NCBI GenBank assembly: GCA_027451445.1
Contig: DAIDJG010000056.1
Span: forward strand, 1-39,611
From: Singulisphaera sp.
GTDB lineage: Bacteria > Planctomycetota > Planctomycetia > Isosphaerales > Isosphaeraceae
Direction: 5' to 3'
DNA: 39,611 nucleotides
Part shown: in pieces, positions 20,477 through 31,934 of the stretch
How positions within the stretch are numbered: position 1 is the stretch's first letter
Layout of the letters: each line of letters starts with the position of its first letter
The notes under the pieces: model-generated
Seen by the model: the letters and a program-made list of their open reading frames with translations, nothing else
The model's database searches: none
Told to the model about the DNA's origin: nothing
Program-made: the position numbers and the translations under genes

Positions 20477-22798
20477 ATGACTTATCGCTACGAGGCCTAC
20501 CTCGACGAGGGCGCTGCGCGCTGGATTCGGGCCGCCCAGGCGGGCGAGTTCGTCGAAAAGCGCGTGCAAGGCGGTCCCCCCAGCTACTCGACGGGCGGCT
20601 GGAACAGCGGTCCAGCCTTCACCGACTGGAACCGGACCCGACGCGCTCCCACGCCCTTTGACCTCGTCGAGGCCTGGCGACAGCTCACGTTCGGCTGCTC
20701 GGTGCTCAACGCCAATGCGGTCAGCCGGCAGCCGCTACGTCTCTTTGTCTCGACGTCGCTCGGTCAGCACCGTCCCAAGAGCTATTTGCGAGGCCGGCCC
20801 CTCACTCGCGCGGCCTCCGGCTACCTGCGGTCTCAACCCGAGTACGGCCAGTACGTCAAGTCCGCCGAGGAGATCGACGAGGTCACCGAGCATCCTCTGC
20901 TGACGCTGCTCGGCGAGGTGAATCCCGACTGGGACCACATCCGCCTGATCCGTTACACGTCGATCTGTCTCGACATCATCGGCCGCGCCCACTGGCTCCC
21001 CGGCGACGAGCGGGGCCAACCCACGCGCGGCCGGCTCGTCCCGCCGTTCCTCTGGCCGCTGTTGGCTCAGTATGTCCTCCCGTACCGCGACTCCGAGGGG
21101 TCGCTCGTTTCGCACTACAACTACTTCTCGAACGAGTACGACCCGACCGAGCTCATCAACTTCCGCGGCGACTCCTTGCGCGATCCCTATGCGCTGGGGC
21201 AATCGCCGACGCAGGCGGCCTTCGCGTTCGTGGGCCTGAGCGACAGTTATACGCAGTTGATGGAAAACATGATGACGCAGAGCATTCGCCCGAGCGTCAT
21301 CGTGACAAACAAGAATGCGAACGAGCCTTTCGGCGACGCCGAGCGCCGGCGGCTCCAGCGCGAGATCAACTACCAGTTGAGCGCGGGGGGTGCGGGGAAG
21401 GCATGGGTCGTCGACGGTTCGGTCGACATCAAGACGCTCACGTTCCCGCCGACGTCGCTGGCCGAGAACGAGATCAGCGAGACGGCGGTCAAATACGTCT
21501 CGTTCATCTTCGGCGTACCGCTCAGCTTTCTGCGCAATGAAGACTCGAACCGCGCCGTGGCCGAGGCGGGCCACTACCAGCACGCGAAGCTCGGCGTTGA
21601 GCCGCGTTGCGTGAACATCGCGTCGACCTTGACGAAATGGACCCATGCCGAAGGCCGCCGCCGAGGTCAGGACTGGTCGCGGCTGCTCTGGGCCTTTGAC
21701 AACCCCGTGAAGGAGGACGAACAGCGCGAAACGACGATCTTCGACATGCGGCTCAAGAACGGTTCGACGACCGTGAACGAGTACCGCATGCACCTCGGCT
21801 ACAATCGCGTGCCTTGGGGCGATGAGCCGTGGCTGCCGAGCTCGCTCGTGCAGCCGAGCGCGGCGAAGGAACAGAGTCAGACCAGTCGCCGTCCAGAGAT
21901 AGGTAGTCCAGACGATTCGTTAGACGATCAGGAGAAACAGTACAGGCGCAAGTCAGAATCCCTCGTCGCTCGTGTTGACGATCGAGGTGCGATTGTCCCA
22001 GATGCGGTCGGCAATACGCTTGAACATGCTCCTGACTCGGTGTATTCCGCTTTCGAGGGTCCAGGATCCGCCGATGCGGCGATTTCAAGGGCATTCAAAT
22101 CTGATCGCGGTAGGGGCCGCCAGCGGTATCGGTTTCGCGGGGTCAGAGTCGGCGCGAACCAACCGAGGTTGCGTTCCGCAAGCGGCCGTCCCAGAGCAAA
22201 CGGCGGCCGAAAAGGCAATCCCTATCATGACGAGCGAGGCCGCTTTGCAAGCGGCCCGCACAGCGGTCGACAGGCGAGGGCTCGCCGGCGAAGACGAACT
22301 CGCACGCAGGCATTCCGACCCCTTGCCAAACCGGCTCTCCAGAGTGTACATTACGACACATCGCTCATTCCGGGACCGAATCCCAACAAGTTGAGACAAA
22401 GAGTCGTCACCACTCCCACGTCGGGACAAGGAGGTGTTTACCTCAAACCACAAAACGGCAAGTTGAAGATCGGTTCCACAAAAGACTTCAAGGGACGGTA
22501 CGGGAAGAAGGAACCCGAGCCGATTCAAATCGAGATTCTCCAAACCCGCGACCGAAAACCACGGGGAGTGAACGACCAAGAGTATCCGTGGACCCCTCGA
22601 AAACAACGGCGTTTTGATGAGGAGTATGTCGACCGGACGATTCACCCAGATGCACGGTATCGAGCGGCTGACGAGAAAGGACCGGTCCGAGCGGAGAAAT
22701 GGAAGAAATACCGCCATATTTTCGGGTATGGCAATGTTCCGGAAGACTTTAATCACAAGGGACTTCGCCGATGGACGAGCTTCTTCGACAGTTACTGA
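20477..22798 (+). CDS. Phage portal protein with C-terminal GIY-YIG/URI toxin-like domain
   Basis: 773 residues, far longer than the usual 400-500 of HK97-type portals. Residues about 1-470 are portal: blocks such as SIRPSVIVTN, VKYVSFIFGVPLSFL and STTVNEYRMHLGY fit the family, which forms the dodecameric DNA channel. About 470-580 is linker; 580-593 is GNPYHDERGRFASG, the short motif common where phage structural proteins join extra domains. Then comes a basic stretch ARARRRRRTR. The last 120 residues hold GGVYLKP (Gly653-Val-Tyr655), KIGSTKDFKGRY (664-675, with Arg674) and Glu715/716, the GIY-YIG nuclease order. Codons in this tail are less GC-rich than in the portal part. The likely immunity gene overlaps the end. 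The toxin role is inference. Confidence 0.82.
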   Translation: MTYRYEAYLDEGAARWIRAAQAGEFVEKRVQGGPPSYSTGGWNSGPAFTDWNRTRRAPTPFDLVEAWRQLTFGCSVLNANAVSRQPLRLFVSTSLGQHRPKSYLRGRPLTRAASGYLRSQPEYGQYVKSAEEIDEVTEHPLLTLLGEVNPDWDHIRLIRYTSICLDIIGRAHWLPGDERGQPTRGRLVPPFLWPLLAQYVLPYRDSEGSLVSHYNYFSNEYDPTELINFRGDSLRDPYALGQSPTQAAFAFVGLSDSYTQLMENMMTQSIRPSVIVTNKNANEPFGDAERRRLQREINYQLSAGGAGKAWVVDGSVDIKTLTFPPTSLAENEISETAVKYVSFIFGVPLSFLRNEDSNRAVAEAGHYQHAKLGVEPRCVNIASTLTKWTHAEGRRRGQDWSRLLWAFDNPVKEDEQRETTIFDMRLKNGSTTVNEYRMHLGYNRVPWGDEPWLPSSLVQPSAAKEQSQTSRRPEIGSPDDSLDDQEKQYRRKSESLVARVDDRGAIVPDAVGNTLEHAPDSVYSAFEGPGSADAAISRAFKSDRGRGRQRYRFRGVRVGANQPRLRSASGRPRANGGRKGNPYHDERGRFASGPHSGRQARARRRRRTRTQAFRPLAKPALQSVHYDTSLIPGPNPNKLRQRVVTTPTSGQGGVYLKPQNGKLKIGSTKDFKGRYGKKEPEPIQIEILQTRDRKPRGVNDQEYPWTPRKQRRFDEEYVDRTIHPDARYRAADEKGPVRAEKWKKYRHIFGYGNVPEDFNHKGLRRWTSFFDSY

Positions 22799-23187
22799 AT
22801 CGGCTCGATGCAGTCCAGGAAACGAATGAAGAACTGTCCGATTCAGAATGCCGGGACCAGATGAGCAGAGCCATCCATCATGCGTTTCTGGTTCCGGACC
22901 CGAATTACGTCTTGCCCGACGAATTCGGCCTGTACACCGACGAAGGGAACCGGGCCGTCAAGGCCGCGCTCGCGGCATACATCCGAGAGGCGAATGCAAA
23001 GTGCGCCGAGCTGGGAATCCACAAGTTCCACGACCGTCTCGCCGCCTTTCAGGCCGAAGACGTGGTATCCGATCATCCGGACGAACCCACCTATAATGAC
23101 GATTACTTTGGCTGGGCGAATCCCCAGGATTTCGACGAGTCGGGGAAGTTTACCGGTGGCTCGGGACGTTGGGGGAAGGTCGAATAA
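22771..23187 (+). CDS. Candidate immunity protein for the portal-fused toxin domain
   Basis: 138 residues, acidic, with no signal or membrane segment, starting inside the last 28 bases of the portal-toxin gene, with AAGGGA before the ATG. It opens MDELLRQLLNRLDAVQETNE and includes HAFLVPDPNYVLPDEFGLYT and a Gly/Trp-rich end (FTGGSGRWGKVE). A single small acidic gene overlapping the end of a toxin domain is the classic arrangement of an immunity gene that shields the producer. No known immunity family was recognised, so this call rests on position, size and charge. It could instead be a scaffold or regulatory protein. Confidence 0.6.
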   Translation: MDELLRQLLNRLDAVQETNEELSDSECRDQMSRAIHHAFLVPDPNYVLPDEFGLYTDEGNRAVKAALAAYIREANAKCAELGIHKFHDRLAAFQAEDVVSDHPDEPTYNDDYFGWANPQDFDESGKFTGGSGRWGKVE

Positions 23188-23459: not shown

Positions 23460-24938
23460 ATGTCCACTTGCGGGTCTCACGACCTGGTAGCCCCGGTGCG
23501 CCCTGCCCCGATCAACAAGCAGTTCACGCCCGCGGAGATCAACTTCACCCCCGGCGAGCGTTCCTTCGTCGCCTGGATCAGCATGGACGTGGTCGACATC
23601 GAGGGGGACGTCGTCGTGCCCTCGGGCGTCGATTATGAGTCAGTGTTCATGGGCGTTCAGGGCGATCCCTCGCATCCCGGGAACCCCGTCGTCATGGCGG
23701 TCCACGATTATCAGCGCTGGCCGATCGGGACCTGCGAGTGGATCAAGGTCGCGCGGCCGTCGAGGCGGTTGCAGTTCAGCGGCCTCTATTCGAAGACACT
23801 GATCGACGAAGACCCAGATGCCCTCAAGGTCTTCGGCATGATCCAGCGCAGGGTGGTGCGGGGAATCTCGATCGGCTTCCGTCCTCCCGAGGATTTCCGC
23901 CCCGGCGAGTGGGGTCCGCCGACGCAGGCGGAGCTCGCCGCGAGGCCCGACTGGGCGACCGCCCGGCGCGTGATCCGCCGGTGCGTGCTCCTGGAATACA
24001 GCGTCGTCCCGATCCCCATGAACCAGAGCTCCTTGATCGTCGCCGTGTCGAAGGGTCTCGAACTCCCCTCGTTTCTTCAGGACAAGGTTTCCGTCATGAC
24101 CTCCACGCGATCGCGCATCTTCGGCAAGGCCGAAGCCGACCCCGACGCCTCGAACTCCCCCCAGGCCGGCGACCATGTACGGATCCACGCCCAGGCGGGA
24201 GGCGGCTGCGGGGTGGTCCGTTCGCTTCATAAGTCCGGCCCCGTGCCGGGTGTTCACGAAGAGGCGGACGGTTGCGACGATGGACCGGCCGCCAAGGTCG
24301 AGCTCCACGATGCCCAGTGCCGCGCGACCGGGGTCCTCAAGGCTGTCCGTTGCTGCCACCTGACCCCGCTTGACCCTGGCGACCCAGATGACGCGGAGGG
24401 TGTCACATCCCAGGACAAGGCGCTCGCCGAATCGAGCGGCACATCCGGCGGATACGTCGTTCCGCCAGAACACGGCCACGAAGACAAGGAGGCGGCTGAA
24501 GACCAATCCGAGCCCGCATCCACACCCGCACCGATCCGCAAAGGCGACTATGTGAAATGGGAACGGCACCGCGATGTCCCCGCCGGCTGCGGCCGGGTCG
24601 CATCGATCCATAAAGCGGGCGTGGTCCCTGGGGTGGCCAACACGATCGAAGCGTCGGAAGACACGCCGGCCGCCCGCGTCAAACTGTACAAGTCGATGGA
24701 CGACCCGCACCACTTCCATGAGTCGGACCACCACGTTGGCGTGTTCGTCCACAAGTGCGCACGAATGGACTCCATGCGGTTCACCACGGGCGCGAAACAC
24801 GCTCGTGCGATCCCGCCGTTCCGCACCCAGGCCCAGTGGCTCGCGAGCGTGGAACGGCTCACACGCGAACGGCTCGCGCTCGAACCCGAAGACGACCTGG
24901 TCGGTGAAACACTCGACCGTATCCACGGCACCATCTAG
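23460..24938 (+). CDS. HK97-type prohead protease with two C-terminal SH3/Tudor-like repeats
   Basis: 492 residues. The protease part (about 30-195) has MDVVDIEGDVVVPSG, AVHDYQRWPIG (catalytic His82) and RGISIGF (Ser137), then LEYSVVPIPMN, as in peptidase S78 prohead proteases that cleave capsid delta domains. Most members are about 200 residues. The extra 300 hold two related modules, about 236-305 and 360-437, each with GD-V-I/W...GCG-V-S-HK-G-VPGV...PAA-V-L, resembling the SH3/Tudor-like domain found in other phage proteins. Between them, residues 320-337 copy a segment of the capsid protein. This domain layout is unusual; interest is discussed separately. Confidence 0.85.
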   Translation: MSTCGSHDLVAPVRPAPINKQFTPAEINFTPGERSFVAWISMDVVDIEGDVVVPSGVDYESVFMGVQGDPSHPGNPVVMAVHDYQRWPIGTCEWIKVARPSRRLQFSGLYSKTLIDEDPDALKVFGMIQRRVVRGISIGFRPPEDFRPGEWGPPTQAELAARPDWATARRVIRRCVLLEYSVVPIPMNQSSLIVAVSKGLELPSFLQDKVSVMTSTRSRIFGKAEADPDASNSPQAGDHVRIHAQAGGGCGVVRSLHKSGPVPGVHEEADGCDDGPAAKVELHDAQCRATGVLKAVRCCHLTPLDPGDPDDAEGVTSQDKALAESSGTSGGYVVPPEHGHEDKEAAEDQSEPASTPAPIRKGDYVKWERHRDVPAGCGRVASIHKAGVVPGVANTIEASEDTPAARVKLYKSMDDPHHFHESDHHVGVFVHKCARMDSMRFTTGAKHARAIPPFRTQAQWLASVERLTRERLALEPEDDLVGETLDRIHGTI

Positions 24939-24970: not shown

Positions 24971-25056
24971 ATCCGCAGATGTCGCAGATGGACGCAGATT
25001 AGTTAATAATATTTTTATAATAATTCAATCTGCGTCCATCTGCGACATCTGCGGAT
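24971..25056. repeat. GCAGAT palindrome, copy 2
   Basis: Arms 24971-25000 and 25027-25056 are perfect 30-base complements (ATCCGCAGATGTCGCAGATG at the outer end) around a 26-base AT-rich loop. It lies in the 354-bp gap between protease and capsid, and could act as a transcription terminator or processing hairpin. The rest of the gap, 25057-25292, holds no recognised gene. Confidence 0.85.
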
Positions 25057-25292: not shown

Positions 25293-26684
25293 ATGAAGCG
25301 TATGTATAAGTGCGTGAAGAGTTTTCCCGCCGCCAACTGGGTGGCCGGCCGCCAGTACGAGCTGGACGAGGCCGATGCGCTCGAGTTCGTCGAAACCCGC
25401 CGGCTCGAACCGATTGCGCTCGATGAGACCGAGGCTCAAATCGAACAGATCGTCAAACGCGTTCGTGCCGAAGACACCGTCGCCCAGGCGCGGAACGTCG
25501 CGACCGTGGTCGACGAGGTCTTCCGCCGCCTTCGCGCTGAGAAGGCGTTCGGCCCGTCGATCGGCGTCGTCACCGACGAGGCGGACAAGTCGAAGAGCTT
25601 CGCCGACCAGTTGAAGCAGATCGTGATTGCCCAGTGTCCAATCATCGCCGGCGAGTTCGGCGGAATGGCCGCCCAGCAGAAGGCCATCGATCGTCTCAAG
25701 AACGTCTACGGCTCGACCTACTCCACCTGGGGCACGAAGGCGGCCCTGGCCGAGTCGTCCGGCACCACCGGCGGCTACACGGTGAAGCCCGAGTACTCGC
25801 AAGAACTGCTCAAGATGGCCTCGGAGATGTCGATCGTCCGCCCGTATGCGAACGTGAAGACGCTCCCCGCTCGCGAAGCCTTCTACCCCATGCTCAACCA
25901 GACCGCCGGTCAGCCGGCCCACGGCACCAACTACGCCGGCGGCGCTTACGTGAACTGGACCTCGGAAGCGTCGACAATCCCCGAAACGGCCGAGCCCAAC
26001 TTCAAGCAGGTCCACGTCGTCACCAACGAGCTCACGGGCCTGGCCAAGATCAGCCGGACCTTGATGAGCGACAGCTTCCTCGCAATGGACGCCGAACTGC
26101 GCTCCATTTTCGCGATCGCGATCAGCTATGAAGAGGACTATCAGTTCCTCCAGGGGAACGGCACGGGCAAGCCGTTGGGAGTCCTCAACGCGCCCGCCAC
26201 TCAGTCCGTATCCCGCACCACGACCAGCGAGTTCAAGCTGAACGACGCGGCCAACATGATGGCCAAGCTCCTCCCTCGCTCGCGGCCCAATGCGATCTGG
26301 GTGATGGAGAGCCTCGTGTTCGCCCAGCTCGTTCAGCTCCTCGACTCCAGCGGTAGAGTCACGTACATCCCGAACTTCGGGAGCGGCTACGACAAGTACA
26401 ACCTGGCCGAGACGAACCTCGTCCTCTTCGGCCGGCCCGTACTGTTCACCGAGAAGCTGAACCCGCTCGGGACGGTGGGCGACATCCTGCTCGCGGACCT
26501 CTCGTACTACATCGTCGCCGATACGGGGACGCTGGAGATCGCGGTCAGCGACCAGTACGCGTTCAACACCAACCAGTTGACCTTCCGCGTCCTCAAGCGC
26601 GTCGACGGCCGGCCGCAACTCGATGCACCGTTCACACAGCAGAACGGCAATACCGTCACGCCGTTTGTGACCCTGGCGAGTTGA
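25293..26684 (+). CDS. HK97-fold major capsid protein
   Basis: 463 residues. The N-terminal about 150 (MKRMYKCVKSFPAANW... ending near KNVYGSTYSTWGTKAA) is a charged helical scaffold-like delta domain. From ALAESSGTTGGYTVKPEYSQ (151-170) on it is the HK97 capsid: SEMSIVRPYANVKTLP, ISRTLMSDS, YEEDYQFLQGNGTGKPLG, ADLSYYIVAD. Cleavage is expected near the start of the ALAESSG block by the protease encoded upstream. I chose the ATG at 25293, with AGGA ten bases before, over an in-frame TTG seven codons earlier. It forms the head shell. Confidence 0.93.
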   Translation: MKRMYKCVKSFPAANWVAGRQYELDEADALEFVETRRLEPIALDETEAQIEQIVKRVRAEDTVAQARNVATVVDEVFRRLRAEKAFGPSIGVVTDEADKSKSFADQLKQIVIAQCPIIAGEFGGMAAQQKAIDRLKNVYGSTYSTWGTKAALAESSGTTGGYTVKPEYSQELLKMASEMSIVRPYANVKTLPAREAFYPMLNQTAGQPAHGTNYAGGAYVNWTSEASTIPETAEPNFKQVHVVTNELTGLAKISRTLMSDSFLAMDAELRSIFAIAISYEEDYQFLQGNGTGKPLGVLNAPATQSVSRTTTSEFKLNDAANMMAKLLPRSRPNAIWVMESLVFAQLVQLLDSSGRVTYIPNFGSGYDKYNLAETNLVLFGRPVLFTEKLNPLGTVGDILLADLSYYIVADTGTLEIAVSDQYAFNTNQLTFRVLKRVDGRPQLDAPFTQQNGNTVTPFVTLAS

Positions 26685-27230: not shown

Positions 27231-27325
27231 ATCCGCAGATGTCGCAGATGCACGCAGATTAATAGATAATTAAAGTAATTAGACTACGATGATTCAATCT
27301 GCGGTCATCTGCGACATCTGCGGAT
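27231..27325. repeat. GCAGAT palindrome, copy 3
   Basis: Arms 27231-27260 and 27296-27325 are complementary at 28 of 30 positions around a 35-base AT-rich loop. It lies between the decoration candidate and the connector, ending 22 bases before the next ATG. Confidence 0.82.
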
Positions 27326-28340: not shown

Positions 28341-28703
28341 ATGCCGAACCACCTGACGAACAACATTCTCACGAACCGCGTCGATCTTTATGTGTTCCAG
28401 CCTTCTCAGGACCCGGACGCCGGGGCCGTGGGAGACGACTCGGCCTATCCCTTGCCGCTCGCGCAGAGCGTGCGCTGTTCGGTGCAGCCCGAGCCGCCGG
28501 AGCGCTACACCGATCAGGAACGTCAGAGCGGGCTGACAGTGTACAACGTCCTGTTCCGGAAAAACTACGGACTGAGCGTCAACGACCGCATCGTGTGGGT
28601 CGATGACAACGGCGTGACGCGCACGCTCGTGGTGACACAGACCCGCAACCTCGCGGGGCGCAGCGGCGCCTGGCACGTGAGGGCGCAGGAGCGGTTTCCA
28701 TGA
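28341..28703 (+). CDS. Head-closure / head-tail adaptor protein
   Basis: 120 residues. SVRCSVQPEPPERYTDQERQ, VYNVLFRKNYGLSVNDRIVW and TRTLVVTQTRNLAGRSGAWH give a small beta-barrel like SPP1 gp16-type head-closure proteins. I used the ATG at 28341; a GTG nine bases upstream is possible. The stop overlaps the next start (ATGA). Position after the connector supports the role. Confidence 0.65.
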   Translation: MPNHLTNNILTNRVDLYVFQPSQDPDAGAVGDDSAYPLPLAQSVRCSVQPEPPERYTDQERQSGLTVYNVLFRKNYGLSVNDRIVWVDDNGVTRTLVVTQTRNLAGRSGAWHVRAQERFP

Positions 28704-29356
28704 CACTTTCCGGCTGCATCATCGCTCGCGACGCGTTGCGATCCCTGCCGGCGGCGATCGCTAGTTTGATCGGCCACGTCGATCGTTTGCTCGTCCTGGT
28801 TGACGATCGCACGCGTGACGGCACGCAGGCCTGGCTCACGGCCCTGGATTGGCTCAAGCCCGCGGGCCTCGTCTGGGACACGTTCACGTTCACCGAGGTC
28901 GGTGGATTCGGCGCCGCGTTCAACGAAGTGCGCGGCCGTGCGGATTGCGATTGGGCCTTCGTGCTCGACGCCGACGAAACGATCGATCCTCACCACGCCA
29001 GGAATCTCCGCATGCTCGTCGAGCGAGCTGTCAGCCAGGGAGCGGACTGCGTCGCGTTTGCACGGATCAACTGGTGGAATCTTGGACGCACGCATCAGAA
29101 GGAAGAGTGGTTCCCCGATCGCCAGCTTCGTCTCATGCGGCGCGACCGCTGGTACCACTGGCGAGCCCATCCCTGCCCCCACTCGGATCGCCTCATGATC
29201 GTCGAGCCCGACGAACTGGTGATTCACCACTTTAATCTCGTCTATCGCTCGAACGCTGACTGGCACGAGATCGCTCAGTTCTACAAACGACAGCTCGAGC
29301 TCGACATTGCCGACGGACGCAACTTGACCGGACAGAGCGAGGCACAGCGCCCATGA
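28700..29356 (+). CDS. Family 2 glycosyltransferase in the virion operon
   Basis: 218 residues. GCIIARDALRSLPAAI is the nucleotide-sugar-binding start of the GT2 (GT-A) fold. FVLDADETID contains the DxD metal/sugar motif (DAD 90-92). EEWFPDRQLRLMRRDRWYHWRAHPC follows, as in TPR-less SunS/Alg-type GT2 members. It is soluble. ATGA overlaps at both ends couple it to the adaptor gene and to a second glycosyltransferase. The acceptor is unknown; virion protein glycosylation is the simplest inference from location. Confidence 0.85.
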   Translation: MTLSGCIIARDALRSLPAAIASLIGHVDRLLVLVDDRTRDGTQAWLTALDWLKPAGLVWDTFTFTEVGGFGAAFNEVRGRADCDWAFVLDADETIDPHHARNLRMLVERAVSQGADCVAFARINWWNLGRTHQKEEWFPDRQLRLMRRDRWYHWRAHPCPHSDRLMIVEPDELVIHHFNLVYRSNADWHEIAQFYKRQLELDIADGRNLTGQSEAQRP

Positions 29357-31852: not shown

Positions 31853-31934
31853 ATCCGCAGATGGCGCAGATGAACGCAGATTTAAGAATTTTTGGGTGTG
31901 ATTCAATCTGCGTAAATCTGTGACATCTGCGGAT
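31853..31934. repeat. GCAGAT palindrome, copy 4
   Basis: Arms 31853-31882 (ATCCGCAGATGGCGCAGATG at the outer end) and 31905-31934 are imperfect complements around a short AT-rich loop. It begins eight bases after the stop of the structural gene. Confidence 0.8.

Follow-up and report, generated by a model that had tools for sequence, protein, structure and literature searches.

A copy of the capsid cleavage junction in a Singulisphaera prophage prohead protease and its candidate role as a self-cleavage site

Why should a prohead protease carry, within its own chain, a near copy of the capsid sequence at which the delta-domain is expected to be cut away? The question is raised by a 39,611-nucleotide stretch of a 10.9-Mb Singulisphaera sp. 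genome (contig DAIDJG010000056.1 of GCA_027451445.1), referred to here in its entirety as the window. The original prediction offered three answers, namely a remnant of an ancestral protease-capsid fusion, a recombination scar or a built-in substrate for self-cleavage, and the last of these is the one that we find best supported.

The prophage head cluster

The left part of the window reads as host genes, and a prophage head-and-tail cluster starts at about 17.8 kb. The gene order is terminase, portal, protease (23460) and capsid (25293), followed by more head and tail genes, and the named relatives found belong to Isosphaeraceae and Singulisphaera.

17951, head cluster: terminase gene
20477, head cluster: portal gene
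23460..24938, + strand: prohead protease gene, 492 aa, HK97-type S78 (profiles; between portal and capsid genes)
23535..24059, + strand: protease domain, approximately residues 26-200, with invariant H82 and S137 (PF04586 at 108-198, phrog_80 at 113-207, alignment)
25293..26684, + strand: major capsid gene, 463 aa, with N-terminal delta-domain (PF05065, 2e-47; TIGR01554, 1e-59)

Judged by its profile matches, the protease is probably a remote HK97-type member of S78: it scores 20.9 bits against PF04586, just below the Pfam cut-off of 21, and 24.1 against TIGR01543 (cut-off 59), it matches phrog_80 of PHROG at 1.4e-10, and NCBIfam too backs the HK97-type assignment. Its gene lies between those for portal and capsid, as for an HK97-type prohead protease. 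H82 and S137 are invariant in an alignment of five proteases and are, we presume from family knowledge, the catalytic residues. The capsid gene starts with the ATG at 25293, and TIGR01554 spans residues 43-447 of its product (1.1e-59), which appears to be an HK97-type major capsid protein with a delta-domain; 149 residues lie ahead of the junction as an N-terminal extension.

Several other features of the cluster deserve mention in their own right. A glycosyltransferase family 2 gene is found inside it (28700-29353; PF00535, 1.4e-8). A palindromic repeat of about 80 bases occurs once between the protease and capsid genes (24973-25054) and at two other intergenic places (27233-27323 and 31857-31932); with 96 matching stretches genome-wide, it looks like an element of the REP/MITE type that spread into the prophage. 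The portal proteins carry long C-terminal extensions that seem unrelated to each other (window 22000-23187; 1201-2278 in the sister phage L028; 9-2621 in L006), and after the portal gene the window and L028 each have a small gene, dissimilar between the two. Extension and small gene, for which no Pfam match was found, resemble a swappable toxin-and-immunity arrangement. The L006 portal, from a Singulisphaera acidiphila prophage, additionally shows a long run of KPNAST-type repeats between portal domain and C-terminal domain (approximately 1400-2000).

The capsid-junction string and its surroundings

24417..24470, + strand: capsid-junction string K320-E337 of the protease, KALAESSGTSGGYVVPPE (alignment, shuffles, capsid-only profile)
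25737..25793, + strand: junction K149-E167 of the capsid, KAALAESSGTTGGYTVKPE, with the expected delta-domain cut after K149 (alignment)

Past the lysine, 14 of 17 residues of the string are identical to the phage's own capsid, which has one extra alanine next to the junction lysine. The local alignment of protease and capsid scores 82, compared with a maximum of 69 and a mean of 35.6 in 3000 shuffles (fitted p 2.4e-6), and searching with a profile built from capsid junctions only picks out the protease string (E 1.2e-8 for 10,000 ORFs). The string was not found in other proteins of the window, the next best ORF scoring 36 versus 78. At the DNA level, a degenerate pattern of the string has exactly two matches in the window, in protease and capsid (0 expected), and none in 391 other genomes of the phylum. 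The shuffles, the capsid-only profile and the pattern search together argue that the string is neither a chance product nor a common linker unrelated to capsid, so that the near identity to the junction between delta-domain and mature capsid, as originally proposed, stands. The string is indeed rich in Ala, Ser and Gly, and a linker rich in small residues might resemble a capsid by accident; given the shuffle result and profile matches in two phages (E 6.9e-5 in the second, L041, described below), we consider this extremely improbable.

What part of the capsid has been copied is indicated by comparison with HK97 gp5, whose full-length chain reads K103-SLGSDADSAGSLIQP and whose mature chains begin at S104. 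A gapless alignment places the lysine of the string on K103, the known cut, its GGY on GSL and its first proline on a proline. Because of this alignment, the string would cover the predicted cut together with residues 1 to 17 of the mature N-arm, and the bond predicted to be cut in the protease is that between K320 and A321, i.e. between nucleotides 24419 and 24420. Cleavage likewise follows K or R in phi12 and a SaPI relative, the two sites having little in common beyond K/R at P1 (PMC8569155).

24129..24308, + strand: SH3-like module 1, a diverged copy (profile of module 2 plus tail, E 1.1e-9; not folded in the model)
24471..24524, + strand: acidic linker between the string and module 2 (sequence; low pLDDT)
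24525..24767, + strand: SH3-like module 2, approximately residues 356-436 (AlphaFold2 pLDDT up to 94 per ten-residue block)
24828..24923, + strand: two C-terminal helices, residues 457-474 and 479-488 (model; C-terminus conserved in alignments)

The string had been placed between two related SH3/Tudor-like modules, and this description stands in part. The modules are related in sequence, as the profile of module 2 finds module 1 at E 1.1e-9, and module 2 is modelled as a five-stranded SH3-like barrel, although its Z values of 6 to 7 against SH3-like barrels (R67 DHFR, KOW, Tudor and BAH chains) are middling and speak to fold class only. Module 1, despite its homology to module 2, is not confidently modelled by AlphaFold2, and the full-chain model of the protease is poor (mean pLDDT 43). 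In both AlphaFold2 models the string is a low-confidence coil flanking the well-modelled module 2, and it is thus predicted to lie in a disordered linker. We rejected the idea that module 1 arose by recent tandem duplication of module 2, as their DNA shows no real similarity. An unrelated phage (L068, 5983-8136) also has the SH3-like module (E 9e-13), at the N-terminus of a head-region protein of 718 aa, and for this reason we regard the module as a probable mobile part of head proteins.

Relatives and the origin of the string

24090..24500, + strand: stretch absent from L028, comprising module 1 and the string, borders approximate (protein and DNA alignment)

The capsid of the sister phage L028 is 88% identical to that of the window, and its protease is without about 125 residues covering module 1 and the string; on this alignment, recombination, or its reversal by loss, clearly appears to lie behind the difference. 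Neither was the string found in the proteases of L006/L030 (Singulisphaera acidiphila), L009/L029 (Singulisphaera sp. GP187), L008 and L032. L028 and all of these have one SH3-like module, with the exception of L032.

A second virus carries the string. In L041, which together with L040 represents one virus in two metagenomes (99.9% identical), the protease has KAMAEGSGAAGGYATKPE ahead of a homologous SH3-like module, and the capsid counterpart is KDLAEGSGQTGGYTVKPD. String, acidic linker, SH3-like module and C-terminus follow each other as in the window, but L041 has an unrelated middle region and a far more distant protease domain. In a set of 5,582 ORFs from 109 loci, many of them overlapping, the window and L041 proteases are the only non-capsid ORFs of a head cluster with a clear junction match. 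When both protease strings were made part of the profile, 13 of 392 genomes of the phylum gave a junction hit below E 1e-5, and only the window genome had two. A second junction copy was not found in some 12 further phage head regions from GenBank. Viral contigs yielded neither the insert nor the exact protease string, genome contigs gave no match to the insert combined with module 2, and phage records had neither insert nor string; nor did the L041 tail turn up among phage or plasmid records. A junction copy in the protease is rare.

Does the string track the capsid of its own phage? Matched string-capsid pairs score 65 and 60, versus 55 and 55 when swapped; ESSGT is the window capsid type, and EGSG the type of the L041 and L006 capsids. 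The best single matches are the L036 capsid for the window string (72) and the L006 capsid for the L041 string (62). It would seem that each string resembles the capsids of its own clade, which with two pairs is suggestive only. At shared residues, the window string uses the same codon as its own capsid in 5 of 14 cases (6.5 expected at random) and the L041 string in 9 of 11 (6.9 expected, p 0.14). A recent DNA copy of the phage's own capsid gene into the window protease was rejected, as codon identity is no higher than in random coding. Since codon agreement does not rise above random, the window string is either of old origin and conserved in its amino acids, or derived from a capsid gene that has not been sampled.

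These data bear on the suggestion of a recombination scar, of which the recombination (or loss) is plain from L028 and the lack of function is weakened by recurrence. Module 1 and the string could have been brought in from the head genes of another phage and play no role, as would fit the absence of the stretch from L028, the mosaic head genes of the group and a string that is as like other capsids as its own. Yet two phages have the string at the same place ahead of the SH3-like module, and amino acids that still match while the codons agree no better than random are not what neutral copying of the phage's own capsid would leave; we therefore deem a functionless insert unlikely.

The proposed remnant of a protease-capsid fusion fares worse. 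A search of relatives did turn up a natural fusion, a 677-aa ORF in L045 (3573-5603) with a single junction string, AKAALSGASGTTGGYLIPEQF, and NF045541, the prohead protease/major capsid fusion family, matches the protease part of L041. A second candidate, L046, was rejected, as its upstream part is in another reading frame, leaving L045 as the only fusion. Such fusion proteins resemble the window protease in having protease and capsid junction in one chain; however, there the whole delta-domain and capsid follow, whereas the window protease has no capsid domain, only 18 matching residues and then an SH3-like module. With no delta-domain ahead of the string, no capsid after the N-arm start and a complete capsid gene separately downstream, descent from a fusion is very improbable.

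A candidate maturation site and its parallels

That the protease sheds its SH3-like tail by cutting at the string, a built-in site of capsid type, is in our view an evenly balanced proposition. The protease would go into the procapsid with a C-terminal tail of linker, SH3-like barrel and helices, the tail serving to target or anchor it. Once active, it would cut the capsid after the lysine of KA(A)LAESSGT, taking off the delta-domain, and cut itself at the matching bond after K320, setting the catalytic half apart from a freed tail of 172 residues that includes the barrel. That this bond is cut, that the window protease does so and that the tail has a targeting or anchoring role we infer from sequence.

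In favour of self-cleavage at a built-in site are a match that is beyond chance and capsid-like by profile, coverage of the junction with its lysine within a predicted disordered linker, and the L041 string in the homologous place before an SH3-like module, although the middle region there is different and the protease domain distant. Against it, five related proteases manage without the string, which is therefore not needed in the group; the preference for the own capsid is weak and the independent cases are only two; and the likeness reaches +17 past the lysine, further than is usually required of a cut site. The cut sites of phi12 and the SaPI relative are so dissimilar that such proteases may need no long motif (PMC8569155).

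The length of the match could instead point to mimicry: by imitating the first residues of the mature N-arm, the string would let the protease tail dock on the capsid lattice and so enter the procapsid or stay there, whether or not a cut is then made. The likeness begins at the cut and covers residues of the N-arm and not the delta-domain, and GGY and the downstream P-E are kept in both copies well past the predicted cut. Conversely, the lysine and the residues beside the cut are kept as well, the copy leaves out the delta-domain, the driver of HK97 assembly, and no structure puts the string on a capsid; we find the mimic reading unlikely. Since the match extends well beyond the cut, the N-arm part of a built-in site could nevertheless dock as well. 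In its broadest form, which we put forward tentatively and as a whole rather doubt, the proposal is that some HK97-type phages would process capsid and protease together, in a single coordinated step that relies on substrate mimicry: a replica of 18 residues from the junction and N-arm start, changing along with the capsid, would act both as a dock on the procapsid lattice and as a self-cleavage site.

Being tethered to the enzyme, the capsid-like string might also act as a substrate-like inhibitor, filling the active site of its own chain so that the protease stays inactive until assembly. We think this quite improbable, as the lysine and a small P1' residue are kept, as expected of a substrate, and most relatives are without the string.

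Self-removing tails of maturation proteases are already known, as are protease-capsid fusions (NF045541). In the giant phage SPN3US, gp245 removes 64 C-terminal residues in vivo at the motif used in head proteins (PMC10052503, PMC5694885). It and phiKZ gp175 (MEROPS S80) are, like the window protease, encoded in head operons and have a C-terminal part removable at their own type of site (PMC10052503, PMC5694885); in the window, the predicted cleavage motif stands in cis ahead of the C-terminal region. The giant-phage proteases differ in belonging to another family, in their A-X-E motif, in having no reported SH3-like tail and no 18-residue capsid-junction copy, and in that their self-cleavage is proven whereas that of the window protease is inferred. 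Self-cleavage is also known from the herpesvirus protease, at its R and M sites, one cut freeing a capsid-binding C-terminus (PMC12474303). UL26 thereby shares with the window protease a catalytic N-terminal half, internal sites and a C-terminal part freed at maturation (PMC12474303), although its tail is scaffold and its sites match scaffold, while the window site matches capsid. HK97 gp4 and gp5 are similar in gene order, in the kind of protease and capsid, and in the cut after lysine at the delta-domain junction. To our knowledge, the short gp4 carries neither a copy of the gp5 junction nor an SH3-like tail.

What appears to be new is a capsid-junction copy with the N-arm start in the tail of an S78 protease, which we did not meet in a limited search of open-access papers. 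How HK97-type proteases enter the procapsid, recognize their substrate and are disposed of is poorly understood, and a protease carrying a copy of the capsid site constitutes a natural experiment on which residues around the cut may matter. The string predicts one exact bond. If the proposal is true, self-removal of a C-terminal tail would occur in the S78 family, alongside giant phages and herpesviruses.
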